A DNA stretch of 64,000 bases from Nitrosomonas supralitoralis (GTDB lineage: Bacteria > Pseudomonadota > Gammaproteobacteria > Burkholderiales > Nitrosomonadaceae). A program made the position numbers and the translations under genes. The first letter of the stretch is position 1, and every line of letters begins with the position of its first letter. Under the pieces are notes generated by a model that was given only the letters and a program-made list of their open reading frames with translations, made no database searches and was not told the DNA's origin. The stretch spans positions 1-64,000 of the forward strand of contig NZ_PXXU01000008.1 of the NCBI RefSeq assembly GCF_003011925.2, written 5' to 3'. Positions 10,290 to 23,933 of this stretch are shown here, one piece after another.

Positions 10290-11093
10290 ATGTTTTTTCG
10301 GATGAACATGCGGCGACATCTTTGGTTGATATGCGGACTATCAGTTGTGATCTTTATAATAGCTATGCTGCTCCCGTCCGTTCCACAGCCGGTCGAATAT
10401 CACGACTTTGCCGATCAGCGTAGCTTCCTTGGTATTCCTAATTTCAACGATGTAATATCCAACTTGGCTTTTTTGCTCAGTGGCGGCGCTGGTCTGATGT
10501 TCCTTTGGCGAGTTCAGAAAACTCCAACGCAAACCGCATTTTATAACCTCAAAGAAAGTCTGCCATACTGGGTGCTGTTTTTAAGCGTAACTTTGGTCGC
10601 ATTTGGTTCCATTTATTACCACTGGGCGCCGGATATCGATCGTTTGTTGTGGGATCGGGTACCCATTGTCATTGCCATTGCCGCGCTTCTGTCCGCGACG
10701 CTGATCGAGCGGATAAGCCCAGTCATAGGCTTTAAGGCATTACCTGTATTGGTGGTTTTGGCGATGATGAGTGTATTGTATTGGTATTGGACCGAACAGC
10801 AAGGCATTGGCAACCTGAACTTTTATATCGTTATGCAATATTATTCGATCCTGTTGATAGTCTGGATCTGCTCGCGCTTCCAATCGCGCTACAGCTTTGG
10901 CAATGATGTCCATCAGGTTATGGTGTTGTACGCGGTTGCGAAAGTGGCAGAGTTTTTGGATCGACCGATATTTGCCTGGACAGATGGCTGGATTAGCGGG
11001 CATACGCTAAAACACCTGATTGCTGCGTATGCCGCTTACCGGATTGTGCAGATATTGCGTAAGAGATTTTATTTTGATGGGGTTGTGCTATGA
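10290..11093 (+). CDS. Alkaline ceramidase-family (CREST) membrane protein
   Basis: A 267-residue protein with about seven hydrophobic segments. It has the polar pattern of the alkaline ceramidase/PAQR/Per1 (CREST) hydrolases: NFNDVISNLAF after the first helix, GSIYYHWAPD with His111, WDR (Asp122), and HTLKH (His238, His242) in the last helix, the presumed zinc ligands. Known members cut the amide bond of ceramides, and the yeast enzymes can also run in reverse and acylate the long-chain base. It lies directly upstream of a serine palmitoyltransferase-type cluster, which supports a sphingolipid role. The start is not decided: ATGs at 10290, 10302 and 10308 are all possible. Whether it degrades or makes ceramide is inference. 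Confidence 0.75.
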   Translation: MFFRMNMRRHLWLICGLSVVIFIIAMLLPSVPQPVEYHDFADQRSFLGIPNFNDVISNLAFLLSGGAGLMFLWRVQKTPTQTAFYNLKESLPYWVLFLSVTLVAFGSIYYHWAPDIDRLLWDRVPIVIAIAALLSATLIERISPVIGFKALPVLVVLAMMSVLYWYWTEQQGIGNLNFYIVMQYYSILLIVWICSRFQSRYSFGNDVHQVMVLYAVAKVAEFLDRPIFAWTDGWISGHTLKHLIAAYAAYRIVQILRKRFYFDGVVL

Positions 11094-11269
11094 ATTCCTT
11101 CCCTAAAGAATATCGTGACGTTCCAGACTAAGGTTTTGTATATCAGTTGCAGAAAGAGGAGAATGAATGTTCGAGGCATCAATGTCGACTCTGAAAAAGG
11201 ATCGATCAAAAAATCGATAGAACCAAATTGTAAATCGATCAGCGTTCTCATAGCTCTATTTGAACAAAT

Positions 11270-11291
11270 GTTGTATTGGTACAACACCAAT
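11270..11291. promoter_or_regulatory. Overlapping palindromes, candidate operator
   Basis: Two perfect dyads overlap: GTTGTA-TTGG-TACAAC at 11270-11285 and ATTGGT-ACAAC-ACCAAT at 11275-11291. They end 12 bases before a TTGACA box, a position suited to a regulator of the acyl-AMP ligase/ceramide genes. Size and symmetry resemble TetR- or GntR-type operators, but no regulator gene lies nearby and the binding protein is unknown. Confidence 0.4.
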
Positions 11292-11302
11292 CTAATATTG
11301 CC

Positions 11303-11329
11303 TTGACAGTAAAAAGCACCTTATATAAG
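11303..11329 (+). promoter_or_regulatory. Candidate sigma-70 promoter for the lipid operon
   Basis: A perfect -35 box TTGACA (11303-11308) and a TATAAG -10 box (11324-11329) are separated by 15 bases, shorter than the preferred 17. It lies about 190 bases before the acyl-AMP ligase start and just after the palindromes at 11270-11291. Low to moderate support. Confidence 0.35.
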
Positions 11330-11516
11330 CTTCTGAGTGGTCAAATATGACACACTTATATTTGTTAAGCAATGTCAGCGGTAGGCGTTTAAATGAAAAT
11401 TTCCAGCCAGAAAAATATGTATTATTTAAAATTGAATATAAAAATTGGCACGCTCAACCGAGTTTCTTGCAAAAAAAAAGAAAAATGACAAGTACAATTA
11501 CTTCGAGGGGAAGATC

Positions 11517-13340
11517 TTGAGTTCGACAATAACCAAGTTGAACGCTCCGCTAACGCAAGCGTTTGATTTTCAGCCTTCAAGCGAATTGCATCTAACACCG
11601 ACACCGACACTCAATACGCTAATTCAGCAGTTAGCTGGTTTTGATACACTAACAAGCGCTTTAGAATATGCAGCGAAGGGGATAACGGGGTATAATTTTT
11701 ATGACGCGAAGGGAAATGTACGTTCAGTTTTGCCATACAAGACACTTAGGCAGAACGCTCGTATTTTAGCTCAACGTATATCTGGCTTTGATTTGCCCGG
11801 TGGTAGCCGGGTTGCAATCATCGCTGATACCTCCCCGGAATTTGTTGAATTGTTTTTTGCGTGCCGCTATGCCGGGTTAGTTCCATTTGCAATGCCAGTT
11901 CCAGTTAATCTTGGAAGCCATGCAATATATGTACAGCAATTGAGAGGTATGCTTGAAAGTAGTCAGGCGAGTATTGCGCTAGCTAATATTGATTACATTA
12001 ATTTTCTTGAAGAAGCCGTAACGGGTGTTGCCAGCATACGGTGGGCAGGGACGCCAGGAAAATTGAGTGAGCTTCCTGTCAGTGATGTTGTGTTGCAACC
12101 TAATGATCCTGATGAGACTGCATATTTACAATTCACATCGGGCAGTACTCGTACCCCGCGGGGTGTGGTTATAACCGAGCGCGCCTTGATGTGTAATTTG
12201 CAAGGGATCGTGCGTAACGGTTTGGAAATTAAACCTGATGATCGTTCTGCATCCTGGCTGCCGTTTTATCATGATATGGGATTGGTTGGGCTGGTTCTGG
12301 CTCCAATGGTTACGCAGATTTCAGTTGATTATTTAGCGACGAGGGATTTTGCAATTCGTCCTTTACAGTGGTTGCGCTTAATCAGTCGGAATCGCTGTAC
12401 GATTGCATTCAGTCAACCATTTGGCCTTAAGCTATGTACTCTTCGTGTACGGGAATCTGATCTTAATGAATTAGACTTAAGTTGTTGGCGAGCGGCTGGT
12501 ATTGGCGCAGAAATGATTCGCCCTGAAACTTTAAGAAACTTCTCCGAAAAATTTGCATCGGCAGGTTTCGATGAAAGTGCCTTTTTGCCATGCTATGGAC
12601 TTGCAGAATCGACACTTGCTGTTACATTTTCAAAAATTAATCAGGGATGTAATAGTCTGAAAGTGGATAGTAAGACGCTGATTGATAAGAAATTGGCTGT
12701 AAGGCTGCAAGCTGATGGTAGGAAGCAGAATGAATTTGTAAATTGTGGACGTCCACTGCCTGGGCATATCGTTAAGATAGTTGATGAGGATGGCCATCAA
12801 CTATCTGAAATGATGGTTGGCAGTGTGCTGGTGAAAGGTGATAGCGTAATGACTGGCTATTACAATAATCCGGAAGAAACGAGCAAAGCACTTAGGCCTG
12901 GAAATTGGCTGGATACCGGTGATATTGGTTTTCTGTTTGAAGGTGATTTGTTTATAACTGGACGTCGCACCGATGTGATTATCGTTAACGGTCGCAATAT
13001 TCGAGCGCAAGATATCGAAGAGTTGGCTGAGCAGCAACCAGAAGTTAGATCACGAGAGGCATCTGCTTTCGGAGTCAATGGTGAAGATGGTACAACGACG
13101 ATTGTGCTGGTAATTGAATGTAGGCTTACCTCTACACCAGAGCGTCAGTCATTGGTTACCAGATTGCAACAGCTTGTTTATATGGCATTTGGAGTCAATT
13201 GTGTGGTTGAGCTTGTGCCACCACATACTCTGCCAAGAACTTCGTCTGGTAAGCTTTCGCGTTTTGCGGCTAGACAAGGGTATATTCAAAGAACGAAATT
13301 GGTAGATCAATTATCTTTTGTAGAGTCTGGTGACAGATAA
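11517..13340 (+). CDS. Fatty acyl-AMP ligase (FAAL/acyl-ACP synthetase type)
   Basis: An adenylate-forming enzyme of 607 residues that activates a fatty acid as acyl-AMP, probably for loading onto the acyl carrier protein encoded two genes downstream. Motifs are the ATP loop FTSGSTRTPRGV (about 206-217), SWLPFYHDMGL typical of FadD32-like FAALs, YGLAEST, LDTGDIGFLFEGDLFITGR and a C-terminal PRTSSGKLSR. I chose the TTG start at 11517 because GAGGGG (11505-11510) lies 6 bases upstream. A farther TTG at 11445 would add 24 lysine-rich residues with no ribosome binding site. Six bases separate it from the reductase gene. In sphingolipid clusters such an enzyme supplies the acyl donor; that role here is inferred from context. 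Confidence 0.88.
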   Translation: MSSTITKLNAPLTQAFDFQPSSELHLTPTPTLNTLIQQLAGFDTLTSALEYAAKGITGYNFYDAKGNVRSVLPYKTLRQNARILAQRISGFDLPGGSRVAIIADTSPEFVELFFACRYAGLVPFAMPVPVNLGSHAIYVQQLRGMLESSQASIALANIDYINFLEEAVTGVASIRWAGTPGKLSELPVSDVVLQPNDPDETAYLQFTSGSTRTPRGVVITERALMCNLQGIVRNGLEIKPDDRSASWLPFYHDMGLVGLVLAPMVTQISVDYLATRDFAIRPLQWLRLISRNRCTIAFSQPFGLKLCTLRVRESDLNELDLSCWRAAGIGAEMIRPETLRNFSEKFASAGFDESAFLPCYGLAESTLAVTFSKINQGCNSLKVDSKTLIDKKLAVRLQADGRKQNEFVNCGRPLPGHIVKIVDEDGHQLSEMMVGSVLVKGDSVMTGYYNNPEETSKALRPGNWLDTGDIGFLFEGDLFITGRRTDVIIVNGRNIRAQDIEELAEQQPEVRSREASAFGVNGEDGTTTIVLVIECRLTSTPERQSLVTRLQQLVYMAFGVNCVVELVPPHTLPRTSSGKLSRFAARQGYIQRTKLVDQLSFVESGDR

Positions 13341-13345
13341 AAGAA

Positions 13346-14260
13346 ATGCAAAAATTAGTAGCTGTAACAGGTGCTACTGGTTTTATTGGCAGCGTACTCA
13401 TTCAAAGGCTAATTCTGGATGGCTGGATAGTTCGTGCACTTACTCGAACTATCCGCTTCTCAGATACTGAATCTCTTCAGTGGATCCAAGGTGATTTAGA
13501 AAACTTAAGTGCATTACATCGCCTTGTGGATGGTGTGGCATATGTAGTCCATTGTGCTGCAACAGTAAGAGGAAGTTCTTTTCAAGAATTTGAGCGCACC
13601 AACATTACAGGCACAGAAAATATCTTGTGCGTCCTTGCTAAACAAAAACATTTTCCACGTTTTCTACTTATTTCTTCCTTAGCCGCACGTCAGCCAGAGT
13701 TATCTTGGTATGCTCAAAGCAAGTATTTGTCAGAACAGAAACTGATTGAATTCTCAGATCAACTGCAATGGGCAATCTTTCGCCCTACAGCGGTATATGG
13801 TCCGGGTGACAAGGAAATGAAGCCGCTTTTTCAATCCATGTATCGTGGATTTTTTCCAGTTGTTGGAGAAAATCAAAATCGGTTTGGACTAATACATGTA
13901 TATGATCTGGTCGCGGCTATTCATGTCTGGCTTAATTCTGAAAGAATAATCAATGGCGTATTTGAACTCGATGACGGTACTCCAGAAGGATATAGTTATC
14001 AGAGTCTTAGGGTAATAGCTCAGCAAGTATGGAAGCGCCCGGTGCATTTTATTGCGATTCCAAATTTGCTTATTCGGTGTATTGCATTGACAAATCTATG
14101 GCTTGGTCGCTTCTTTAGATATTCACCCATGCTGACTCCAGGAAAAGTTAATGAATTACAGCATGAAGACTGGGTGTGCAATAATACCCCCTTAATTAAT
14201 GCCTTACCAGAATGGCGTCCGAGAATTCGTTTACAAGATGTATTATCTGAAGTAATCTAA
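13346..14260 (+). CDS. NAD(P)-dependent epimerase/reductase, candidate ceramide reductase (CerR-like)
   Basis: A 304-residue extended short-chain dehydrogenase. It has the Rossmann loop GATGFIG (9-15), a conserved HCAATVRG (69-76) and the catalytic YxxxK pair Tyr122/Lys126 in WYAQSKYLSEQ. The fold covers sugar epimerases, 3-beta-HSD-like steroid enzymes and the bacterial ceramide reductase CerR, which reduces 3-keto-ceramide. Its place between an acyl-AMP ligase and an ACP-serine palmitoyltransferase pair makes the CerR-like role the best guess. Sequence motifs alone show only an NAD(P)-dependent enzyme acting on a hydroxyl or keto group. Confidence 0.75.
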   Translation: MQKLVAVTGATGFIGSVLIQRLILDGWIVRALTRTIRFSDTESLQWIQGDLENLSALHRLVDGVAYVVHCAATVRGSSFQEFERTNITGTENILCVLAKQKHFPRFLLISSLAARQPELSWYAQSKYLSEQKLIEFSDQLQWAIFRPTAVYGPGDKEMKPLFQSMYRGFFPVVGENQNRFGLIHVYDLVAAIHVWLNSERIINGVFELDDGTPEGYSYQSLRVIAQQVWKRPVHFIAIPNLLIRCIALTNLWLGRFFRYSPMLTPGKVNELQHEDWVCNNTPLINALPEWRPRIRLQDVLSEVI

Positions 14261-14289
14261 CTTCAAAATTAACTAAGCTGAAATAACCT

Positions 14290-14547
14290 ATGACTGAAAG
14301 TAATTATGATGAGATCATGCAGTTGCTCTGTGACCGCCTTAGAGATTTGGCCAGTACCGATGTCTTAATCACCCCAGAAACAAACCTGATCAACCAATTA
14401 TCGATTGATTCCATTAAATTACTCAATCTGATTATGGAAATTGAAGATACTTTTGATATTTCAATTCCTATAAATGCATTGACAGATGTTCAAACAGTTG
14501 GTGAATTAGTTGACTTGGTGCATAAAATTAAAACGACATCATCATAA
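14290..14547 (+). CDS. Acyl carrier protein
   Basis: An 85-residue carrier protein. The phosphopantetheine serine is Ser41 in SIDSIKLLNL, followed by the acidic helix IMEIEDTFDI typical of ACPs. It is not the housekeeping ACP: the usual DSLDTVEL context is replaced. It overlaps the next gene by one base (TAATG), so the two are translationally coupled. A dedicated ACP next to serine palmitoyltransferase is a known arrangement in bacterial sphingolipid clusters, where it carries the acyl chain for condensation with serine. The particular acyl chain is not known. Confidence 0.92.
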   Translation: MTESNYDEIMQLLCDRLRDLASTDVLITPETNLINQLSIDSIKLLNLIMEIEDTFDISIPINALTDVQTVGELVDLVHKIKTTSS

Positions 14548-15740
14548 TGAATTTACTTGAGAAGTTAGATGCTGCTGCAGCAGCAAGAAAAGCACTTTTA
14601 CCTAATGGAATTGGTGCTTTCGGTATTCCAATCGAAGAGGTTTTTTCTGCTACTGAGGCCAGAATTGGAGATCGCCGCGTACTTCTGATGGGCACAAATA
14701 ATTACCTGGGATTAACTTTTGATCCTGAATGCATTCGTGCGGCGCACGAGGCGATTGATAAAGAAGGAACAGGTACCACAGGTTCACGGATGGCGAATGG
14801 CAGTTATTTTGGCCACCGGGCATTAGAGAGAGAATTTGCCGATTTTTATCAATGTAGCTCGGGTATTGTTTTTACAACGGGCTATCAAGCGAACTTAGGT
14901 ACCATCTCTGGTCTAGTGGGTCCGGGTGATACGGTTCTAATTGATGGTGATTCTCACGCAAGTATTTTCGATGGTTGTATTCTCAGTGGCGCGGATATTA
15001 TTCGTTTCAAACATAATGACATGGTCGACATGGAGAAACGGTTGCGCCGTCTGGGTGATAGTGCTGAAACTACGCTAATTATTGCTGAAGGCATCTATAG
15101 TATGCTTGGAGATCAGGCGCCCTTGTCCGATATCGTACAATTGAAAAATAAGTATGGTGGCATATTACTGCTTGATGAGGCTCACTCGCTTGGCGTTCTA
15201 GGTAAAACAGGTCAAGGTCTTGTTGAAGCAACGGGCTTGTTAGATGAGGTTGATTTTATTACTGGAACTTTTAGTAAAAGCTTATGCAGTATTGGCGGGT
15301 TTTGTGTAAGTAATCACCCGCAGCTCGAACAATTACGGTATGTCAGCCATCCCTATATTTTTACTGCATCTCCATCACCGGCAACAATTGCCTCAACTCG
15401 GGCCGCCTTGGAATTGCTTAGAAAAGGAACTCATTTGCGCGACAAATTATGGAGCAATTGTCAGCAACTCTATTCACAGCTTAAAGAAATTGGCTATCAG
15501 CTAGGTCCGGATCCTGGTCCAGTCATTGCTGCTGTTGTTGAAACGCCACAACAAGCGCTGTTACTCTGGCAACAGTTACTCGAGCATAATATTTATGTAA
15601 ATCTGATTTTGCCGCCAGCAGCACCCGAAGGTAAATCGCTCGTGCGTTGCAGCGTGAATGCTGCGCATACAGCGGAACAAATTGGATATGTAGGTGATAC
15701 TTTTGCTAAGTTGTATAAAATGATAAACGTATCATCATGA
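14547..15740 (+). CDS. spt: Serine palmitoyltransferase-type alpha-oxoamine synthase
   Basis: A 397-residue PLP enzyme of the alpha-oxoamine synthase family. It condenses an acyl thioester with an amino acid; for serine the product is 3-ketosphinganine. The PLP lysine is Lys244 in GTFSKSL, the Asp/His pair is in LLDEAHSLG (210, 213), and the stacking His137 is in DGDSHASI. Over KBL or BioF, several stretches match the remembered Sphingomonas serine palmitoyltransferase: NNYLGLTFDP, PYIFTASPSPA, the late YVNLILPPAAPEG and RCSVNAAHT. It lacks a membrane anchor, like other bacterial SPTs. It is coupled to the ACP gene and downstream of acyl ligase and reductase genes, which supports ceramide synthesis over biotin or threonine metabolism. 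Confidence 0.87.
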   Translation: MNLLEKLDAAAAARKALLPNGIGAFGIPIEEVFSATEARIGDRRVLLMGTNNYLGLTFDPECIRAAHEAIDKEGTGTTGSRMANGSYFGHRALEREFADFYQCSSGIVFTTGYQANLGTISGLVGPGDTVLIDGDSHASIFDGCILSGADIIRFKHNDMVDMEKRLRRLGDSAETTLIIAEGIYSMLGDQAPLSDIVQLKNKYGGILLLDEAHSLGVLGKTGQGLVEATGLLDEVDFITGTFSKSLCSIGGFCVSNHPQLEQLRYVSHPYIFTASPSPATIASTRAALELLRKGTHLRDKLWSNCQQLYSQLKEIGYQLGPDPGPVIAAVVETPQQALLLWQQLLEHNIYVNLILPPAAPEGKSLVRCSVNAAHTAEQIGYVGDTFAKLYKMINVSS

Positions 15741-15878: not shown

Positions 15879-16529
15879 ATGAAAATAATGCAAGGGTTGG
15901 CCTTAACATTATTTTCCTTACTTTTGCATAGTTATACTCTGGCGACAAGTATTGTGTACGATGGATTTAACTGTCTGAATGCAGTTGATGCCAATGATCC
16001 CACCCCTGGCATTACTCGAGTACAAAGTAAATTTGAGGTCATAGAAATTGTCGGAGAAGGAATATATCGTTTAAGCCTAACAGGCGGCATCCCCCGTTTT
16101 GTTAATAACAATCAGAATGTGTGTATTGATGGTGCAACGGCAATTGGATACTCGGGAATTCCTGATGTAGACGGATTTCCGCGTCCGCTGGAATCCATCG
16201 ATGCCACAGCCTATTTCAATGGACAGGAATTGGTGATTGTCATCAGTTCAATGTATACAGACCTGAGCGCAACAAGAAGTAATCCCTTTTTGCCTTTTGC
16301 TACGAGCAAAATATTTGCCATAACAAACACGCTCATCTTGGAGTTTAATTCTGATTCTGCTTCGTTTAAGTTGAAGAAAATTATAAGTAACCGTGGATTC
16401 ACGCAGACTAAAGAATCAAGAAACTTAATACCGTTTCTGGAGACAATTCTGCCATCATTTAATGAGACGCCACAGGACAAACCCAGGATACTTACTCCGG
16501 CGTCTAATATAGACTTCTCGTTGCAGTAA
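15879..16529 (+). CDS. Unknown exported protein
   Basis: I do not recognise the family. The 216-residue product starts with a plausible signal peptide (MKIMQGLALTLFSLLLHSYTLA, cleavage near residue 23). A beta-rich domain follows, with two cysteines that could pair (about residues 30 and 87), and a low-complexity tail ending NIDFSLQ. It begins 138 bases after the serine palmitoyltransferase gene in the same direction, and AUG with GAGGTC upstream supports the start. Whether it belongs to the lipid operon is open; the gap is large enough for its own promoter. Confidence 0.65.
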   Translation: MKIMQGLALTLFSLLLHSYTLATSIVYDGFNCLNAVDANDPTPGITRVQSKFEVIEIVGEGIYRLSLTGGIPRFVNNNQNVCIDGATAIGYSGIPDVDGFPRPLESIDATAYFNGQELVIVISSMYTDLSATRSNPFLPFATSKIFAITNTLILEFNSDSASFKLKKIISNRGFTQTKESRNLIPFLETILPSFNETPQDKPRILTPASNIDFSLQ

Positions 16530-16720: not shown

Positions 16721-18055
16721 TTACAGCAACTGATTAGCCAAATTCGCAAGGTCAGATCGCTCGCCTTTTTCCAGTCGTACATGCGCATAAATTTCATGAT
16801 GTCTGATTTTATCGATTAAATAGGATAATCCATTACTCTGGGAATCTAGATAAGGAGTATCGATTTGGTAAATATCGCCGGTAAAGACGATCTTGGTGTT
16901 TTCACCTGCACGCGTGATGATTGTTTTGACTTCGTGTGGCGTGAGATTCTGTGCTTCATCCACAATAAAAAAAACATTTGAAATACTGCGTCCGCGGATA
17001 TAAGCGAGTGGAGTGATTTTTAGTTTTTCTTGATCAACGGCATCTGTAATCTGTTTATATTCCCTGTCTTTTTCAGTAAAAAGACTTTTTATGAATTTAA
17101 GATTGTCCCACAGCGGCTCCATATAAGGATTTAGTTTTGAAATGATGTCGCCTGGCAAAAAACCAATATCTTTATTGCTTAAAGGCACAATCGGGCGCGC
17201 CAAGTAAATCTGTTTGAAATGTCTTTTCTGGTCGAGTGCGCCGGCGAGTGCGAGTAATGTTTTTCCTGTTCCAGCAACACCCTGTAAGGTAACGAGTTGG
17301 ATATTCGGATTTGTAATTGCATGCAAAGCAAATACTTGCTCGGCATTTCTGGGTTTAATTCCAAAGGCGGATTCTTTTTCAATACGTTCAATTCTTTGTG
17401 ATACCGGATTATAAAATACCAATACAGAAGCTCGACTATTTTTAAGGATAAAATAATGATTGGGTATGGGATTCTGTATCCCTATTTCTGCAGGCATACA
17501 AAAATTCTGGGTATAAATGCTGTCAATAATCTCTTTTGTCAATCCCTCGATCACAGTTTTTCCGGTATATAAAGAATCAAGATCCTTGATCTTTCCGGTT
17601 TCAAAATCTTCTGCTGGAATGTTCAGGGATTTTGCCTTGAGGCGTAAATTGATATCCTTGGATACCAAGATTATTTTTCTTCCCGGATATGTATGACTCA
17701 GTGAAATTACTGCATTTAGAATGCGATGATCCGCTGTGTCCTCTCCAAATACTTCTGTGGCATCCAGTCCGATGATCTTTTCTTGCATGCATACCCTGAA
17801 ATGACCATGATTTGTCTGATCAATGGGTATCCAGTTTTGCAGCGAATGATTTGACGACAATCTGTCCATGATTCGTATGAATTCTCTTGCCTCAAAGTTC
17901 TTGATGTCATTGCCTTTCTTAAAATGATCAAGTTCTTCCAGTACGGTAATCGGAATGGCTACATCATTGTCTTCAAAGCTGTAAATTGCGCTGTGGTTAT
18001 ATAAGATGACCGAAGTATCCAGGACAAATATTTTCTTTGTTTGCATTCTTGGCAT
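16721..18055 (-). CDS. PIN-domain/PhoH-family ATPase (YlaK-like)
   Basis: A 444-residue fusion of an N-terminal PIN ribonuclease-like domain (FVLDTSVILYN at 10-20, later acidic residues near 95-110) with a C-terminal PhoH ATPase. The ATPase part has Walker A GVAGTGKTLLALA, the PhoH motif IYLARPIVPLSN and Walker B FFIVDEAQNLT. Such PIN-PhoH proteins are thought to be RNA helicase-nucleases; the cellular role in Gram-negatives is poorly defined. Length and domain order are standard. It is monocistronic as seen here. An in-frame ATG three codons in (18046) is an alternative start. Confidence 0.92.
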   Translation of the reverse strand: MPRMQTKKIFVLDTSVILYNHSAIYSFEDNDVAIPITVLEELDHFKKGNDIKNFEAREFIRIMDRLSSNHSLQNWIPIDQTNHGHFRVCMQEKIIGLDATEVFGEDTADHRILNAVISLSHTYPGRKIILVSKDINLRLKAKSLNIPAEDFETGKIKDLDSLYTGKTVIEGLTKEIIDSIYTQNFCMPAEIGIQNPIPNHYFILKNSRASVLVFYNPVSQRIERIEKESAFGIKPRNAEQVFALHAITNPNIQLVTLQGVAGTGKTLLALAGALDQKRHFKQIYLARPIVPLSNKDIGFLPGDIISKLNPYMEPLWDNLKFIKSLFTEKDREYKQITDAVDQEKLKITPLAYIRGRSISNVFFIVDEAQNLTPHEVKTIITRAGENTKIVFTGDIYQIDTPYLDSQSNGLSYLIDKIRHHEIYAHVRLEKGERSDLANLANQLL

Positions 18056-19115
18056 GAGGAGCTGGAGTAATAAAAAACGAAACTGCTAATTATTAATTAT
18101 TGCTACAAGTTGAATTTATGAAACTTTGAAAAAACAAATGTACTCTGTTTTCAGTAAAGTTGCCACATCAGTTAGCAGTCGGTATTTAGAAACGGCGAAG
18201 TCAATGCTCGAATGGGTTTTGAGCTGGTATTAAGCTCAATCGTTTTTTTAGCTTCGATATCACGATTGCGAAAATAATCTCCATCGCCTTAACCAACTTA
18301 TGTCGGTACCGCACGCTATTGCGGAAGGCCAGACATTGGGGAAAATTTGCCATCGATGTGGAACAACATTTCTAAGAGGCTATCCCGAGCACACCCGATA
18401 TTCCGGTCAATGGTATGCGCTATCATGAAACAAGTTCAAGAATCACCTTCGGTATAAAGGAAACAGATATTCTGAGGTTGACTTCAAACCCTCATCTGCA
18501 TGACAATAAGTTGCTGAAATTATGGTAGAAGCAATGACCAGTATCCAGGGCAAGTGTCAGCAACAAGTTGCTTGCCACCTTAAATTTTCCATCTCTACAA
18601 AACCGAAGCAACCGGCACTCATTGTAACCCGTCGAGCCGATCGTCTGATGGATTGCCACTGCAGTCTGAGGCTGGCGCAAGTCTGGGACGCAGAGTACTG
18701 GCAGCATGAAGCGGTCTGATAGATAAATGTGATCAAACAGTTGCGTATTTCGGATTTTGTTACAATCGAATGAGTGCAGAAAAATAGTACTGCGGTGCAT
18801 AGGCATTTTAAAACCTTTGGTACCGAAGAACTGATAGGTGAGATAAAATCGGATATGATCGGATTCGGTAAAAGATGCATCGTCTCTTGTTTATTGAATA
18901 TAATTTATCTTGCTTGTCAAAATCCTGCGAAGCAAAAAGAAAATCGTTGAGAACAGATTATATTTATGCTCTTTGAAGGTAGGAAACTTTTTCTTTCCAG
19001 AGCAGGATGGATGCTAAATTCGCGCTATCACTTCCTTATTATTTTTACAGAAGTACATCAAGAATTAAGTTCGCGACATTATTATTAAGCGCAGGATTAT
19101 TAGAGGAAAGGTGAT
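18056..19115. other. Gene-poor 1.06-kb stretch
   Basis: I see no credible coding gene. Short open frames on both strands at 18492-18880 lack ribosome binding sites and any familiar motif. The composition is mixed, with a more GC-balanced core at about 18290-18720 that could be a decayed gene, but I cannot name it. AT-rich sequence before 19116 probably contains the promoter of the SGNH hydrolase gene. Confidence 0.4.
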
Positions 19116-19679
19116 ATGCATTATCAGAATCTGCTTTGCATCGGAGATAGTCAAACTTTTGGTGCTCGGACTTATGGCTGTTACCCGCTGTACCTTGCTC
19201 AAATGCTTACACAACGAACGCCGTATCAATGGCGTACGATTAATCGAAGTGTTAATGGGTATACAGCCCGAGATTTATGGTTTTTGCTCAGTAATGATAT
19301 CGAAGTCATCAGCGATACTTATCAGGTATGCGTACTCATAGGTACAAACGACGTGGGGAATGAAACTCCGCTTGATCTTTTTGAAGAATATTACCGGCAA
19401 ATTGTTCGGACATTCTTAATCAAGAAATATAAGGCTGTTTTTTGTAGTGAAATTCCACCGATTTTTCCAGATGGCCATATTTTCTTCCGTAAAGAAGCAG
19501 TAGATCAGCGCAATCAATATAATGCCGCGATCAGGAAAATTTCAACCGAAAATAGAAAAACTCATTATGTGTCGATTGATGGATTAAGTCGTGACTGTTA
19601 TGTAGATTCCGTTCACTTCAATGAACAAGGGAATCGAGTTGTCGCTGAATTATTTGCCAAGGCTATTTTAGAGCGGTGA
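19116..19679 (+). CDS. SGNH/GDSL-family hydrolase
   Basis: A 187-residue esterase/acetylhydrolase fold. Block I is CIGDSQTFGA (Ser near residue 9), block III is LIGTNDVGN, and block V is DSVHFNEQG with the Asp-His pair near 165-168, so the catalytic set is complete. There is no signal peptide, so it is probably cytoplasmic. It overlaps the next gene, a UDP-GlcNAc 2-epimerase, by four bases (GTGA). The tight coupling suggests that it trims or transfers acyl groups on a nucleotide sugar or glycan intermediate. The substrate is unknown. Confidence 0.8.
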   Translation: MHYQNLLCIGDSQTFGARTYGCYPLYLAQMLTQRTPYQWRTINRSVNGYTARDLWFLLSNDIEVISDTYQVCVLIGTNDVGNETPLDLFEEYYRQIVRTFLIKKYKAVFCSEIPPIFPDGHIFFRKEAVDQRNQYNAAIRKISTENRKTHYVSIDGLSRDCYVDSVHFNEQGNRVVAELFAKAILER

Positions 19680-20734
19680 AGATCGGGATTGTAATTGGCA
19701 CTCGTCCCGAGGTCATGAAAAATTATTCCATTGTGAAAGCTTTGCGCGAAGCGAATGTGGATTTTGTCGTTCTGCATACTAACCAGCATCAGGATCCCCT
19801 GCTTCGAGAAGTGGTGTTTGCCAAAATGGGTTATGTGCCAGATTTTATTTACCCTAGATCTTATAGGATTGGCGCAGCGATTGATTGGGTATGCGAAATC
19901 ATTCGCTCGCAGCAAATTGACCTGGTCCTGGTGAATGGTGATACTGCAGCCTCAATTGTGGGTGCCGTAGCTGCTGTTTATTCGGATGTTGGGTTAGCTC
20001 ATGTCGAGGCTGGATTGCGTTCTTATGACAATCATATGTATGAAGAGCGTAACCGTATCATGGTCGATAGTGCAGCCCATTATTTGTTTACGTATACTGA
20101 GCGTCATACTGAATACTTAAAGAAGGTTCCGGATTTGCGCGGTCGAATTTTCAATGTCGGCAACACCACTGTAGATTTAATTCATGATTTTTCTGCCGAA
20201 TTGATTAAACCACGTTCCGATACCTACGCATACATTACTCTGCATCGTAAGGAATTTACCGACAGCCGCATAAGAATGGTTGACGTTTTTACAACGCTCA
20301 ACGGCTTGAGAGATGAATTTGATGCCATGATTTTTCCCATGCATCCACGGACACGGGACGCAATGAAAAGTTATGGACTCAGCTTTGATCTTTTGTCGCA
20401 GATAATAGTTATTGATCCGGTCGATCCATTTTTATCGCTTTCTTACGAAAAATTTGCGGCACTCATCATTACGGACAGTGGCTGCATTCAGGAAGAAGCC
20501 TATATTTTTGGTGTTCCATGTGTGACTGTTCGAAATAACACCGAGCGACCCGAAACTATTCAAGCTGGCGCCAATGTATTAACCGGCTTTTCCCCAGCCG
20601 TAATTCGGGACAAGATATGTTTGCAAAGAAGATTTGGCAACCAGCAATTCCCGCCCGTCTATGGGGAGTATGGAGTTGGTAATCGTATTGTTCAAGCATT
20701 GCGGAAATATTTTATAGATTGGAATGATTATTAA
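19676..20734 (+). CDS. UDP-N-acetylglucosamine 2-epimerase (non-hydrolysing, WecB-like)
   Basis: A 352-residue enzyme of the WecB family, which interconverts UDP-GlcNAc and UDP-ManNAc for surface polysaccharides. Motifs are GTRPEVMKNYSIV at the start, LVNGDTAASI, HVEAGLRSYDNHMYEERNR, the catalytic-His region HPRTRDAM and DSGCIQEEAYIFGVP with TERPETI. These match the family closely, though the usual PEE of the central motif is YEE here. It uses a GTG start at 19676 overlapping the SGNH stop codon. No ManNAc dehydrogenase is adjacent, so the fate of the ManNAc is unclear. Confidence 0.88.
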   Translation: MKIGIVIGTRPEVMKNYSIVKALREANVDFVVLHTNQHQDPLLREVVFAKMGYVPDFIYPRSYRIGAAIDWVCEIIRSQQIDLVLVNGDTAASIVGAVAAVYSDVGLAHVEAGLRSYDNHMYEERNRIMVDSAAHYLFTYTERHTEYLKKVPDLRGRIFNVGNTTVDLIHDFSAELIKPRSDTYAYITLHRKEFTDSRIRMVDVFTTLNGLRDEFDAMIFPMHPRTRDAMKSYGLSFDLLSQIIVIDPVDPFLSLSYEKFAALIITDSGCIQEEAYIFGVPCVTVRNNTERPETIQAGANVLTGFSPAVIRDKICLQRRFGNQQFPPVYGEYGVGNRIVQALRKYFIDWNDY

Positions 20735-20857
20735 TTGCTTGAGTAGATTTCTTTAATATTTACATAAGGCATCATTGCATCAACCAATAATATTTGGTGA
20801 GCAGTGTGCTGAGCAATACTAGTACCTAACTGTTAGTTTTCTGACCTGAAATTAAGA

Positions 20858-22741
20858 TTATGCACATTTATCTCGTAGCATATTGATTAATGTGTCATCG
20901 ATGGGAAAATCACTTTGATTTCCATGCATTGGATTAATGATTGTCAGGAACTCATGTGGCAGGCGAGTGCGGATTTCTACCCTTAGAGTATTAATAGGTT
21001 CCTTTATGCCATATTTTCTGGAAATCCAACCCAATGGCAAATGCTCGTTACCTCGATATAAGGAAAGTTTTCCGCCTTTCACGCTAATAAACCACGGTCC
21101 ATCTTCGCATGCTATGACGATTCCATCACTTGTCATTTCAACATGCGCATCAACATGCCAGTGCATTGCCAGGGTGTGTTCGTCCGTACCATCAAGTCGA
21201 TCCCATATCATCCACCCGAACTGGGGATCATAGATCAGCGCTCGCCAGTGCATAATTCCGATATCAGAGTAGCCATTATGGTTGGCTAGCAGTACTGTTT
21301 TGCCATTATAATTTTTTCTGTGCCATATTAGTTTTGCTGAATATGCGCGTAACCAGCCAAATGCGGTTTCCTTATTTTGCAAAGCCTGGTCAGTATTATC
21401 CACCACAATCGTGTTATGAGCTGATGTACCGCGAAAGTAGCGCCTGAAAAACATGTCTCTCCCATATAGATATGTGCCTGGGTCGACTAATAATGGTTTG
21501 TCGTCAAGATTCCAACAAACAGACAAGGCATCGGCATGTCCATGGCCGAATGTACTTGCCATGCCAAGCTTTCCATGACTGAATCGCATGTTGCCATGGT
21601 TTGCTGTGCCCAAAATTTGCGAATGCCCGGATACCGCAAAAATTTGAAGATGTTCGATGGGTAATTCGATTGCATGAGAACTGTCTTTCCATGATAGTCG
21701 GAGGTATGGTGACAATGCATATCCATCGTCGCTGTCACCCACTGCGGGCAAGTTATTAGGCGAGGAAGAAAACTTCTGTAAATAACTACTGCCACGAATC
21801 CAGGCCTGTTCGATATCATAGGAGGTGGCTTTGCCGTGATGTCTTAACAGACGAGTCACGAGCCCACAAAGATCAACAATCATCGCCAGATACTGGAATG
21901 ATTGTTCGCGATTTCCTCCGTCCTGTAGAATTTGAACCTGCGCTTCACGCTCCATATATTTTAAACCAGCAGTCAGCCATTCTTCCGCATCTGGCAGTTC
22001 TGGAAAGAGAACGCCGGCGTAAACGAGTCCAGCACATTCTCCAAGCGTATGATTCCCGGCAGAAGAAAAAAGACAAAGTCGTCTCCGGATAAAGTAGGCA
22101 TGGCTATGCACAAGAAACACCAATCCTTGCCAGACTTGCGAACTTAATGGGTGATTTCTCACCATATCGAATGCATGACAAATACTTATTAACCTAAGGC
22201 TGCATTCCATAGTGGAAATATAATTCACGCCGATTAGCCATGGATTCTGATTGATCCATGACAACATCAATTTTTCCATGTGCTGGATAACTGGGTACTT
22301 ACTGCTGTGATCCTTTATTTGGTTATAAATCAGGCCTAAAGTAACTAAATCTTGTAGCCGGGATCGCGCCCAAACAAGCTGAATATCCCCAATTGGATTG
22401 CCCGGTGCAAATGAGATTCGCGTAAAGAATTTTAGGGGCCAGTAGCGTCCGGTATCTGGCGCTTTATGCCAGCACAGATCGTGCGTGTCGATTGCAAGGT
22501 TGGCAGGATTGTGAACAACGCAAGCTTGTTTGTCATCTGACTTGATAAGATCGGATAGTTCAAGATCTTCGCAAAACCAAGCAAATTGAGGAAGGCAAGG
22601 TAGTTCGCTGCGACAAAACGTATAGTTTTGTGGATTGATTGTCTTTCTGAAGCGAAAGCCGTAGCCTGTGCATTGCCTGATCCACATCCCGGCAAGCGAT
22701 GCTCGTCTCCTGATACGGTATAGTGATTCACTGAGGTTCAT
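20858..22741 (-). CDS. Heparinase II/III-like (alginate-lyase fold) protein
   Basis: About 627 residues with the two-part heparinase II/III architecture. The first part is an N-terminal alpha-barrel region (to about 330, including the conserved SSAGNHTLGECAGLVYAG and GGNREQSFQYL). The second is a C-terminal beta-sandwich (FSHGKLGMASTFGHGHADAL, DPGTYLYG, FRGTSAHNTIVVD). The HGHAD and NTIVVD elements are typical of the family. There is no signal peptide, unlike secreted lyases, so it may act in the cytoplasm or as part of polymer synthesis. The ATG at 22741 gives a 14-base overlap with the upstream radical SAM gene; a GTG at 22774 is an alternative. It is common next to exopolysaccharide genes, and its substrate is unknown. 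Confidence 0.85.
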   Translation of the reverse strand: MNLSESLYRIRRRASLAGMWIRQCTGYGFRFRKTINPQNYTFCRSELPCLPQFAWFCEDLELSDLIKSDDKQACVVHNPANLAIDTHDLCWHKAPDTGRYWPLKFFTRISFAPGNPIGDIQLVWARSRLQDLVTLGLIYNQIKDHSSKYPVIQHMEKLMLSWINQNPWLIGVNYISTMECSLRLISICHAFDMVRNHPLSSQVWQGLVFLVHSHAYFIRRRLCLFSSAGNHTLGECAGLVYAGVLFPELPDAEEWLTAGLKYMEREAQVQILQDGGNREQSFQYLAMIVDLCGLVTRLLRHHGKATSYDIEQAWIRGSSYLQKFSSSPNNLPAVGDSDDGYALSPYLRLSWKDSSHAIELPIEHLQIFAVSGHSQILGTANHGNMRFSHGKLGMASTFGHGHADALSVCWNLDDKPLLVDPGTYLYGRDMFFRRYFRGTSAHNTIVVDNTDQALQNKETAFGWLRAYSAKLIWHRKNYNGKTVLLANHNGYSDIGIMHWRALIYDPQFGWMIWDRLDGTDEHTLAMHWHVDAHVEMTSDGIVIACEDGPWFISVKGGKLSLYRGNEHLPLGWISRKYGIKEPINTLRVEIRTRLPHEFLTIINPMHGNQSDFPIDDTLINMLRDKCA

Positions 22742-23933
22742 TTTCGGTTCGGTGTGCCATTTTAGGCAACTCACCCGGTTTGCGGATTTTTGCCGCGTTC
22801 ATAACCCACGCAGGATTACACACTTTTTTCCCAAGTATGGGTTTTACATCAGCTTCACCATAGATATCGTGATAATGTCGGTATAAGTAGTCACAAACAT
22901 TTACATAAGCGCACTTTTTGCAACTTTTAGTCTTAATTCTATCTTTGATTACATAGAATCGGCTGAGTCCGGCCGTACACACAGCTCTGAAACCGTATTT
23001 GGCGACAAAAGTAATATACGGTATTTTTAGAATACCGAGTAGCAGGCACAGCCAAGTGACTAAACTTCCTTTCCTGATCAGGAAACTAGTAAAATTGTCC
23101 CACTCGTCTGGATCAAATGTCATTTGATCCATGTTTGTCACATATTGCTCGTAACCTGGAAGAAAGCAGAACGGTATGTATCTTACGTTGAAATGTGGAA
23201 GTTTATCTTCGCACGATTTGATAGCCTTGATGATCTCCCTGCCTGCATCCGCGTAATTGACATACACGTCTTTGACAATATCAATATTCTTTGCCTGTAA
23301 TACTGGATTGAACATCACAAAATTGATGTTATCGACCTTTTTTTTAATGAGCAGTTGCATGATTTCAGTCAGATGCATGTAATTTGATTTACAAACAACC
23401 GTGTTGGTCCGGACCCTTAAATGAAATTCTCTGGCATGGTCAATAGCTTCCAGAATGTGATCAAAACTATGAGGTACTTTTGTCAGATCATCATGAGTAA
23501 TTGCATCATGGCCATGGATGCTGAACAAAATGTCATCAACGCCTGCAGCGACGAGGCTGGCAACGTAATTCCGTTTAGACAGCCTGATGCCGTTTGTAAT
23601 CAGGCAGACAATGGAAAAACCGAGCTCTTTTTTGGCATAACTAATCAGTTCGGGTAAATCCTTGCGCAGGGTCACTTCTCCGCCGGTAAACTCTATTTCT
23701 TGTATTCCAAGAATTTTGGCTTGTTTGAGCTGTGTTTTGGCTTGTTCGGTGGTCAGAGTATTTTCATTGGATTTCGTGATGACGGAATCATAGTAATAAC
23801 AAAAAGGGCATTTGGCATTGCATGCATAGCCCAAATTAATCTCTACTTTTTTGGTATGGTAAAGCACGGTTAGCGATTCCTCTGTTTTTTGAATTGGAAG
23901 TAATGGATTGAGTTGAATTGAAGAGTAGCGCAA
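22728..23933 (-). CDS. Radical SAM protein with C-terminal cysteine cluster
   Basis: A 401-residue radical SAM enzyme. The iron-sulfur cysteines are Cys38, Cys42 and Cys45 in CNAKCPFC, followed by EFTGGEVTLRKDLPEL, which binds the SAM methionine. The C-terminal part has a SPASM-like set of cysteines (CTAGLSRFY, SCKKCAYVNVCDYLY, KVCNP), suggesting auxiliary clusters. It overlaps the heparinase-like gene by 14 bases, so the two are coupled. Radical SAM proteins of this type are seen in polysaccharide clusters with unassigned chemistry. The TTG start at 23933 has no useful spacing to its AGGA; a GTG at 23867 with AGAGGA ten bases upstream is an alternative. Confidence 0.85.
   Translation of the reverse strand: MRYSSIQLNPLLPIQKTEESLTVLYHTKKVEINLGYACNAKCPFCYYYDSVITKSNENTLTTEQAKTQLKQAKILGIQEIEFTGGEVTLRKDLPELISYAKKELGFSIVCLITNGIRLSKRNYVASLVAAGVDDILFSIHGHDAITHDDLTKVPHSFDHILEAIDHAREFHLRVRTNTVVCKSNYMHLTEIMQLLIKKKVDNINFVMFNPVLQAKNIDIVKDVYVNYADAGREIIKAIKSCEDKLPHFNVRYIPFCFLPGYEQYVTNMDQMTFDPDEWDNFTSFLIRKGSLVTWLCLLLGILKIPYITFVAKYGFRAVCTAGLSRFYVIKDRIKTKSCKKCAYVNVCDYLYRHYHDIYGEADVKPILGKKVCNPAWVMNAAKIRKPGELPKMAHRTENEPQ

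Follow-up and report, generated by a model that had tools for sequence, protein, structure and literature searches.

The question raised by this locus is whether a run of genes near the start of a 64,000-nt stretch of the Nitrosomonas supralitoralis genome (the window) encodes ceramide synthesis, and which of the genes around it take part. The segment 11517-15740 is very probably a Nitrosomonas version of aasR-cerR-acpR-spt, the operon known to encode ceramide synthesis in proteobacteria, acting with a CerS and with probable head-group and transport steps. The genes and their families, their order, the fifth gene with its neighbours, and their conservation were read directly from the genomes compared.

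The four-gene cluster

Five open reading frames, at 10290-11093, 11517-13340, 13346-14260, 14290-14547 and 14547-15740, are all on the plus strand, and their coordinates and junctions bear out the head-to-tail arrangement of the last four that an earlier note on this DNA had described. The ligase and reductase genes are separated by 5 bases (a coordinate step of 6), the reductase and acyl carrier protein (ACP) genes by 29 bases, a gap absent from the earlier note, and the ACP and serine palmitoyltransferase (SPT) genes overlap by 1 base. The ligase start used in that note is a TTG at 11517, and the open frame reaches a TTG at 11445. No tRNA genes, and no Rfam families at gathering score, were found in the 64,000-nt window.

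The first gene, aasR (11517-13340), predicts a fatty acyl-AMP ligase/acyl-ACP synthetase that matches the fatty acyl-AMP ligase model NCBIfam NF006624 at 847 bits (cut-off 600, E 5.9e-255). As the SPT also matches a curated model, at E 2.9e-173, the gene calls are not due to chance. The cerR gene (13346-14260) predicts an SDR-type reductase of the NAD-dependent epimerase/dehydratase family with an 84-bit match to Pfam Epimerase; the NCBIfam search gave no model above its cut-off, and the role of 3-keto reductase is presumed from position and homology. The acpR gene (14290-14547), immediately 5′ of spt (14547-15740), predicts a dedicated ACP (Pfam PP-binding, 43.5 bits) with a DS motif at residue 40, in which we take Ser41 to be the phosphopantetheine site. 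All four genes of the aasR, cerR, acpR and spt set are thus present.

The same ligase-reductase-ACP-spt order is found in E. coli BL21(DE3), where the four genes, and yghO beside them, are named aasR, epi, acpR, spt and aca in passages of PMC9386255, and the products in corresponding positions are 46, 43, 44 and 54% identical to those of N. supralitoralis. BL21(DE3) has cerS (yghO) next to the four genes, one LptF/LptG pair next to spt and a canonical pair elsewhere; in N. supralitoralis a different contig carries cerS together with the sole LptF/LptG pair that was found.

The suggestion that such a pathway is undescribed in Nitrosomonas is rejected, because its prediction for N. eutropha is already in print, in portions of PMC9386255 and PMC11324152. 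The former lists aasR-epi-acpR-spt in N. eutropha C91 under consecutive locus tags (Neut_0458-0461) with an unlinked aca/cerS (Neut_1100), an arrangement of four genes and an unlinked fifth that is shared with N. supralitoralis. The latter adds head-group genes, and CC_1166-1168 and CC_1158 are said there to be missing in N. eutropha. N. eutropha is another species, and in strain Nm 57 (L045) the order of the four genes is the same, with identities of 71% (ligase), 51% (reductase), 56% (ACP) and 77% (SPT). Among the open-licence papers looked at by title and the start of the abstract, none reports measured sphingolipids in ammonia oxidisers.

Genes flanking the cluster

The gene at 10290-11093, 423 bases 5′ of the ligase gene, predicts a membrane protein of the CREST/ceramidase superfamily and had been included in the Caulobacter-type ceramide cluster first proposed. 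The ligase/CerR/ACP/SPT block of that proposal stands, on the SPT model, the tree and the BL21 gene order, but the ceramidase-like gene looks like a mere neighbour outside the pathway. A genuine role for it within the system, in turning over ceramide, is unlikely. Its product carries both motifs that sections of PMC3146951 describe for CREST hydrolases, SxxxH (SIYYH at 107) and HxxxH (HTLKH at 238), the superfamily is said there to have an N. eutropha member, and the gene lies next to the operon, in the same orientation, in 7 genomes, the source genome and six relatives. However, the match to Pfam Ceramidase (PF05875) is 28.9 bits, under the gathering cut-off of 32.5, and homologues occur in 106 of the 125 family genomes, with adjacency in only the 7 and with stops in some copies. 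The gene is also found in 59 of 289 sampled genomes of the order that lack an over-cut-off SPT, and the 2 genomes of the order outside the family that do have one are not among the hits. The likeness to the alkaline ceramidase branch of CREST (PMC3146951, in part) consists of the two motifs and the weak Pfam match, the differences being the sub-cut-off score and the absence of a link to SPT across genomes. Membership in the pathway was rejected on score, synteny and distribution.

Downstream of spt, a gene at 15879-16529 (plus strand) predicts a 216-aa protein, a candidate accessory only, with an N-terminal hydrophobic stretch resembling an export signal and no family in Pfam and NCBIfam searches. 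It was matched, in a few cases weakly, in 67/125 family genomes belonging to one genus of four, and is immediately 3′ of spt in 41 of the 67; it was not found in N. eutropha Nm 57. The predicted fold is of middling confidence (mean pLDDT 76.1, 17 sequences). It resembles avidins at a VIA-align Z of 8.9 (3.2 Å over 105 residues), near the tool's 'common' level, Foldseek gave no match with E < 0.001, and the avidin-like fold is a hint only.

Identity of the serine palmitoyltransferase

The spt product scores 576.1 bits against NF047599, the NCBI curated model for beta-proteobacterial SPT (cut-off 500), followed by the alpha SPT (435 bits), Bacteroidetes-type SPT (353), BioF (324), KBL (306), autoinducer-synthase (220) and ALAS (217) models. 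The profile search against KBL, BioF and HemA subfamilies that had been advised thus places the SPT model ahead, at 576 against 324 bits or less. The ten best sequences in the PDB are all SPTs, eight at 387-398 bits and two at 281.5, with the best KBL at 214 bits and a cysteate-C-fatty acyltransferase at 185. Each motif on which the original assignment was based was found where it had been placed, with DSHAS at 135, GTFSKS at 240 (containing Lys244), PYIFTAS at 269 and RCSVN at 367, and DEAHS is at 210. Those at 135, 210, 240 and 367 align to the solved SPTs 2x8u and 2jg2. Lys244 is presumably the PLP lysine.

The tree places 19 SPTs in a single clade with support of 100/100, the nearest row to the N. 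supralitoralis protein being that of N. ureae Nm13 (94% identity). E. coli BioF and KBL, a Bacillota sequence and a BioF-like paralogue encoded separately in the same genome all fall outside this clade. BioF and KBL are on long branches, and ALAS and CqsA are not among the rows, the comparison with these two being limited to model and PDB scores. The grouping with KBL, BioF or CqsA that the earlier note held would refute the assignment was accordingly not seen, in the tree for BioF and KBL and by score only for CqsA.

An SPT-like enzyme that uses alanine, glycine or cysteate, and so forms 1-deoxysphingoid or sulfonolipid-like bases, is very unlikely. Related synthases with other substrates exist, the cysteate-C-fatty acyltransferase among them, and sequence cannot give substrate choice with certainty, but bacterial SPTs match closely and the CerS, CerR and AcpR set co-occurs with head-group-type genes. 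Hardly credible is a synthase of BioF, KBL, ALAS or CqsA type in a block making some other acyl-derived product: the fold family is common to all and those models do match, but at clearly lower scores than the SPT models, solved SPTs lead the PDB ranking, the tree gives full support against BioF and KBL, and the paralogue is a separate gene. On model scores, PDB ranking and tree, the BioF/KBL reading was rejected.

The cerS locus, distribution and proposed pathway

The cerS candidate, for a predicted acyl-CoA N-acyltransferase, is the single match in the genome to BL21 YghO (G000:C175:88027-89136, E 6.4e-126, 50% identity), and is on contig C175, unlinked to aasR-cerR-acpR-spt; the Pfam search gave no family for its product. 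It is part of a tight run made up of cerS and genes for a MobA-like nucleotidyltransferase, LptF, LptG, a CDP-alcohol phosphatidyltransferase and a DAGK-domain protein. The five-gene ceramide set is shared with Caulobacter crescentus (CC_1165-CC_1162 and CC_1154, with CPG2 genes, in parts of PMC11324152; CpgB, PMC10331486; CpgD, PMC12275187), though in N. supralitoralis it is split over at least two places. The Pfam domains of the C175 run are of the kinds described for the Caulobacter kinase, CDP-alcohol transferase, nucleotidyltransferases and LptF/LptG, a tentative likeness by domain type. The kinase-like part has matches near spt in alpha loci, and shares one reading frame with a part that has its own gene beside the kinase in one alpha locus (L062). 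The kinase-like protein reads AGDG, whereas GGDG is described in PMC10331486. Among the loci compared, the CDP-alcohol protein matched only L062 and the MobA-like neighbour had no convincing match (best E 0.004). Plasmid pPNP1 of Pseudomonas sp. JS425 (L091) carries, much like C175, consecutive genes for a nucleotidyltransferase, LptF, LptG, an acylglycerol kinase and a hypothetical protein, with a ligase-epimerase-ACP-aminotransferase-fold enzyme series nearby. It differs in being one locus, with the kinase and hypothetical protein separate and the synthase annotated only as aminotransferase-fold.

An over-cut-off SPT is present in 119 of the 125 family genomes, and a CerS-like protein (120/125) and the kinase-like protein (122/125) are as widespread; outside the family, only 2 of 291 sampled genomes of the order have such an SPT. 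One genome of the same genus (G056, 91% complete) has no over-cut-off SPT, no CerS and no LptF/LptG.

All reactions, the product and its transport would follow those of Caulobacter. AasR would activate a long-chain fatty acid and load it onto AcpR, and SPT would form 3-oxo-sphinganine by condensing L-serine with the loaded AcpR. CerS would add an amide-linked acyl chain and CerR would reduce the 3-keto group, the order of these two steps being disputed in the literature. The ceramide would then probably be phosphorylated by the CpgB-like kinase and receive CPG/CPG2-like head groups of phosphoglycerate, and its transport towards the outer membrane would probably fall to the LptF/LptG proteins encoded next to cerS.

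A search of the genome found no LptF/LptG pair besides that on C175. Two LptF/LptG matches are present in 111/125 family genomes, and the C175 LptF is closer to the LptF of sphingolipid clusters than to the canonical LptF of E. coli or Neisseria. With a single pair of this type, LPS and sphingolipid may share it, or normal LPS export may be missing. We tentatively propose, as a possibility somewhat short of even, that canonical LPS-type LptF/LptG is absent from the ammonia oxidisers of this family, which would have just one pair, of the sphingolipid-cluster type, in the cerS operon. In a limited look at the literature, including portions of PMC11324152, no statement of a single pair in Nitrosomonas was found.

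What was already known is a genetic prediction, published for one species, to which the present analysis adds the family-wide count, the fifth gene and its surroundings, and the finding of just one LptF/LptG pair, within the cerS operon. Should the lipids indeed be produced, sphingolipids would be present in the membranes of nearly all ammonia-oxidising bacteria of soils, waters and treatment plants, even though spt is seldom found in the part of the order sampled outside the family. The single pair also makes LPS versus sphingolipid export clearly testable. If the proposal is true, one exporter would handle both phosphosphingolipid and LPS, or sphingolipid would replace LPS in the outer leaflet, and this would be family-wide in environmental bacteria, as against an LPS-free mutant.

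Composition of the four-gene block and identity of the SPT

The forward strand of the window carries four genes, aasR (11517-13340), cerR (13346-14260), acpR (14290-14547) and spt (14547-15740), that predict a fatty acyl-AMP ligase (847 bits against the fatty acyl-AMP ligase model, cut-off 600), an Epimerase-type SDR reductase, a small PP-binding carrier protein (ACP) and a serine palmitoyltransferase (SPT; 576.1 bits against the beta-proteobacterial SPT equivalog, cut-off 500). The reading frames of these genes and of the gene upstream were found where the earlier note had placed them, and its SPT motifs and Lys244 are in the positions it reported. The same four-gene order is present in E. 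coli BL21(DE3), where yghO, on the other strand, is followed by genes for a fatty acyl-AMP ligase, an NAD-dependent epimerase, an ACP and SPT (named aca, aasR, epi, acpR and spt in PMC9386255), with identities to the window of 46% (ligase), 43% (reductase), 44% (ACP) and 54% (SPT). Among 66 named loci found with SPT, some truncated at contig ends, the close-spaced order was seen across Nitrosomonas, Nitrosospira and Nitrosovibrio; in 9 of 13 alpha-proteobacterial loci, the ligase and reductase genes are several kb off on the opposite strand.

The 14547-15740 protein could in principle be a BioF or KBL enzyme, and this was ruled out by model scores, PDB ranking and a protein tree. Curated SPT models scored highest (beta 576, alpha 435 and Bacteroidetes-type 353 bits, versus 324 for BioF, 306 for KBL, 220 for autoinducer synthase and 217 for ALAS). 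Among PDB entries, the ten best distinct sequences all carry the name serine palmitoyltransferase; the top one scores 398 bits and the best KBL 214. In a tree of 23 hand-chosen proteins, 19 SPTs form one clade (support 100/100) that leaves E. coli BioF, E. coli KBL, a Bacillota sequence and the genome's own BioF-like paralogue outside on long branches; ALAS and CqsA are not among the rows, and separation from them therefore rests on scores. The SPT call of the earlier note is thus borne out against BioF and KBL, and its ceramide block is a correct reading of real genes, the answer being already known for the genus. Its remark that no such pathway is established in Nitrosomonas holds for the chemistry, among the matches listed from open-licence literature, but not beyond it, as a published prediction exists for N. 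eutropha: PMC9386255 names the four genes plus a cerS at a separate site, and PMC11324152 extends this with head-group genes.

The PhoH and RadA surroundings of the block are retained chiefly in the closest named loci. The region 16721-22774 includes a PhoH-PIN gene, a GDSL-lipase-like gene, a UDP-GlcNAc 2-epimerase gene and a gene for a 638 aa protein on the opposite strand; the later genes of this region could form part of a polysaccharide cluster. In two loci labelled as a Bacteroidetes bacterium (L031) and a Moraxellaceae bacterium (L039), SPT shares 91% and 78% identity with that of the window, which suggests mislabelled MAGs or mixed bins.

The cerS cluster on a second contig

A search of the same genome with BL21 YghO found one place, cerS (C175:88027-89136; 383 aa, 50% identity, E 6.4e-126). 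It overlaps by 4 bases a MobA-like nucleotidyltransferase gene, which overlaps the LptF-family gene by a further 4 bases. The run includes the LptF/LptG-family pair (L085:17952-19001 and L086:30-1088, both stretches of C175), followed by genes for a 410 aa protein with a CDP-alcohol phosphatidyltransferase domain and a 664 aa kinase-like protein whose N-terminal part is a DAGK catalytic domain (L086:2607-4601). In an alpha-proteobacterial locus, L062, counterparts of the 410 aa and 664 aa proteins adjoin spt as three distinct genes (373, 315 and 296 aa), whereas on C175 the ceramide-kinase-like and partner-like parts are joined in one frame. The joined gene is full length without a stop in 23 rows among the family matches listed, and in many relatives has one or more internal stops or gives two separate matches. 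On Pseudomonas sp. JS425 plasmid pPNP1, genes for a nucleotidyltransferase, LptF, LptG, an acylglycerol kinase and a hypothetical protein are consecutive, near those for a ligase, an epimerase, an ACP and an aminotransferase-fold enzyme. For Caulobacter, CC_1160 (CpgB) is described as a ceramide kinase (PMC10331486), CC_1161 as required alongside it for ceramide phosphoglycerate, and CC_1159 as carrying a CDP-alcohol-type domain. From the gene types of L062, the plasmid and Caulobacter, the last compared by descriptions, we read the C175 cluster as the putative head-group and export part of the ceramide pathway. Against this reading, no convincing counterpart of the nucleotidyltransferase was found in the compared loci (best E 0.004), and the CDP-alcohol protein matched only L062 among them.

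A PF03739 search of the genome returned two matches only, the pair beside cerS. Exactly two were found in 111 of the 125 family genomes, three in 8, four in 1, one in 1 and none in 4 (G007, G039, G056 and G119, which also have no CerS); of the extra matches, at least one (G095) represents a full-length gene at another site. The best-scoring gene was no more than 2.5 kb from cerS in 39 of 39 genomes scripted. The LptF protein is closer to its counterpart in the BL21 sphingolipid cluster (169 bits) than to canonical BL21 LptF (54 bits), and a tree of 10 rows groups it and that counterpart with L054 (97/98). In a plasmid collection that includes some whole chromosomes, eight records scored 135-161 bits (Pseudomonas, E. 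coli, Rahnella and Klebsiella, with surroundings viewed for one) and LptF of Neisseria, the one canonical beta-proteobacterial form compared, 61 bits; solved LptF structures, under different scoring, gave 67-87 bits. On these scores, tree and plasmid-collection matches, the only pair in the genome appears to be of the sphingolipid-cluster type. For LptG the distinction is less sharp (184 versus 147 bits), with canonical E. coli LptG inside its group, and the canonical pair of other beta families could be closer. In Caulobacter, LptF2/LptG2 are second versions according to PMC11324152.

Genes flanking the block

The forward-strand gene at 10290-11093, which the earlier note placed just upstream of the block as a ceramidase-family membrane protein gene, scores 28.9 bits against Pfam Ceramidase, below the 32.5 cut-off, and its product has the SxxxH and HxxxH motifs described for CREST proteins (PMC3146951). 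Of the 125 family genomes, 106 have a homologue, and it immediately precedes the operon in 7 (G000, the window's own genome, G089, G063, G091, G045, G090 and G085), as checked by script in 17 and by eye in 89, none of the latter adjacent, though neighbours split across contig ends could escape; in G060 the gene is on the other side, at a distance of 7 kb. The seven adjacent copies are also the seven with the best scores, so a single juxtaposition in one lineage is the simplest reading. The gene was found in 66 of 300 sampled order genomes (7/9 from the family and 59/291 others); the two genomes outside the family that have SPT are both absent from these hits. Since 59 of 289 order genomes without SPT, meaning under the cut-off of one beta model, carry it, the gene does not appear tied to ceramide synthesis. 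Its low Pfam score, adjacency in only seven genomes and presence without SPT led to its rejection as part of the pathway. Homologues in G043, G044, G064, G086, G116 and G024 have internal stops or split matches, so some family members may be able to do without the gene, unless these are assembly errors.

Directly after spt, the gene at 15879-16529 predicts a 216 aa protein of no known family with a hydrophobic N-terminus, invariant cysteines C32 and C82 and a beta-rich, weakly avidin-like predicted structure. Matches were found in 67 of the 125 family genomes, all in the window's genus, and in 41 of these the gene immediately follows spt. A role as a periplasmic sphingolipid carrier is improbable.

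Predicted pathway and its distribution

AasR would load AcpR, and acyl-AcpR would pass to SPT; Caulobacter AasR is reported to load AcpR, with SPT preferring acyl-AcpR as substrate (PMC9386255). CerS and CerR would finish dihydroceramide. PMC11087976 argues that acylation precedes reduction and that CerR is periplasmic, and others have proposed the opposite order, reduction before acylation. The window CerR has the nucleotide-binding GATGFIG at residues 9-15 and therefore, judged by eye, no obvious export signal. We infer all of these reactions for Nitrosomonas.

SPT exceeded the cut-off in 119 of all 125 family genomes. The six others (G006, G017, G028, G039, G056 and G119) are less than 90% complete except G056 (91%), and in G017 a contig start truncates a 374-bit match. 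CerS-like proteins were found in 120 of 125; of the 99 genomes with completeness of 90% or more and contamination of no more than 5%, 98 have one, the exception being G056. The kinase-like protein was matched in 122. In the order sample, 11 of 300 passed the SPT cut-off: all 9 family members, plus G222 (560 bits) and G261 (555 bits) among the 291 genomes from outside the family. These two belong to one genus of another family, two other sampled members of which fall below the cut-off, and either transfer or old retention is possible. Four results may be new: the count across the family, the lone LptF/LptG pair of sphingolipid type, the kinase gene with its two parts joined, and the gene for the 216 aa protein after spt. 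With 119/125 and 9/9 in the family versus 2/291 outside, the predicted ceramide pathway is therefore characteristic of the family and rare among the other members of the order that were sampled.
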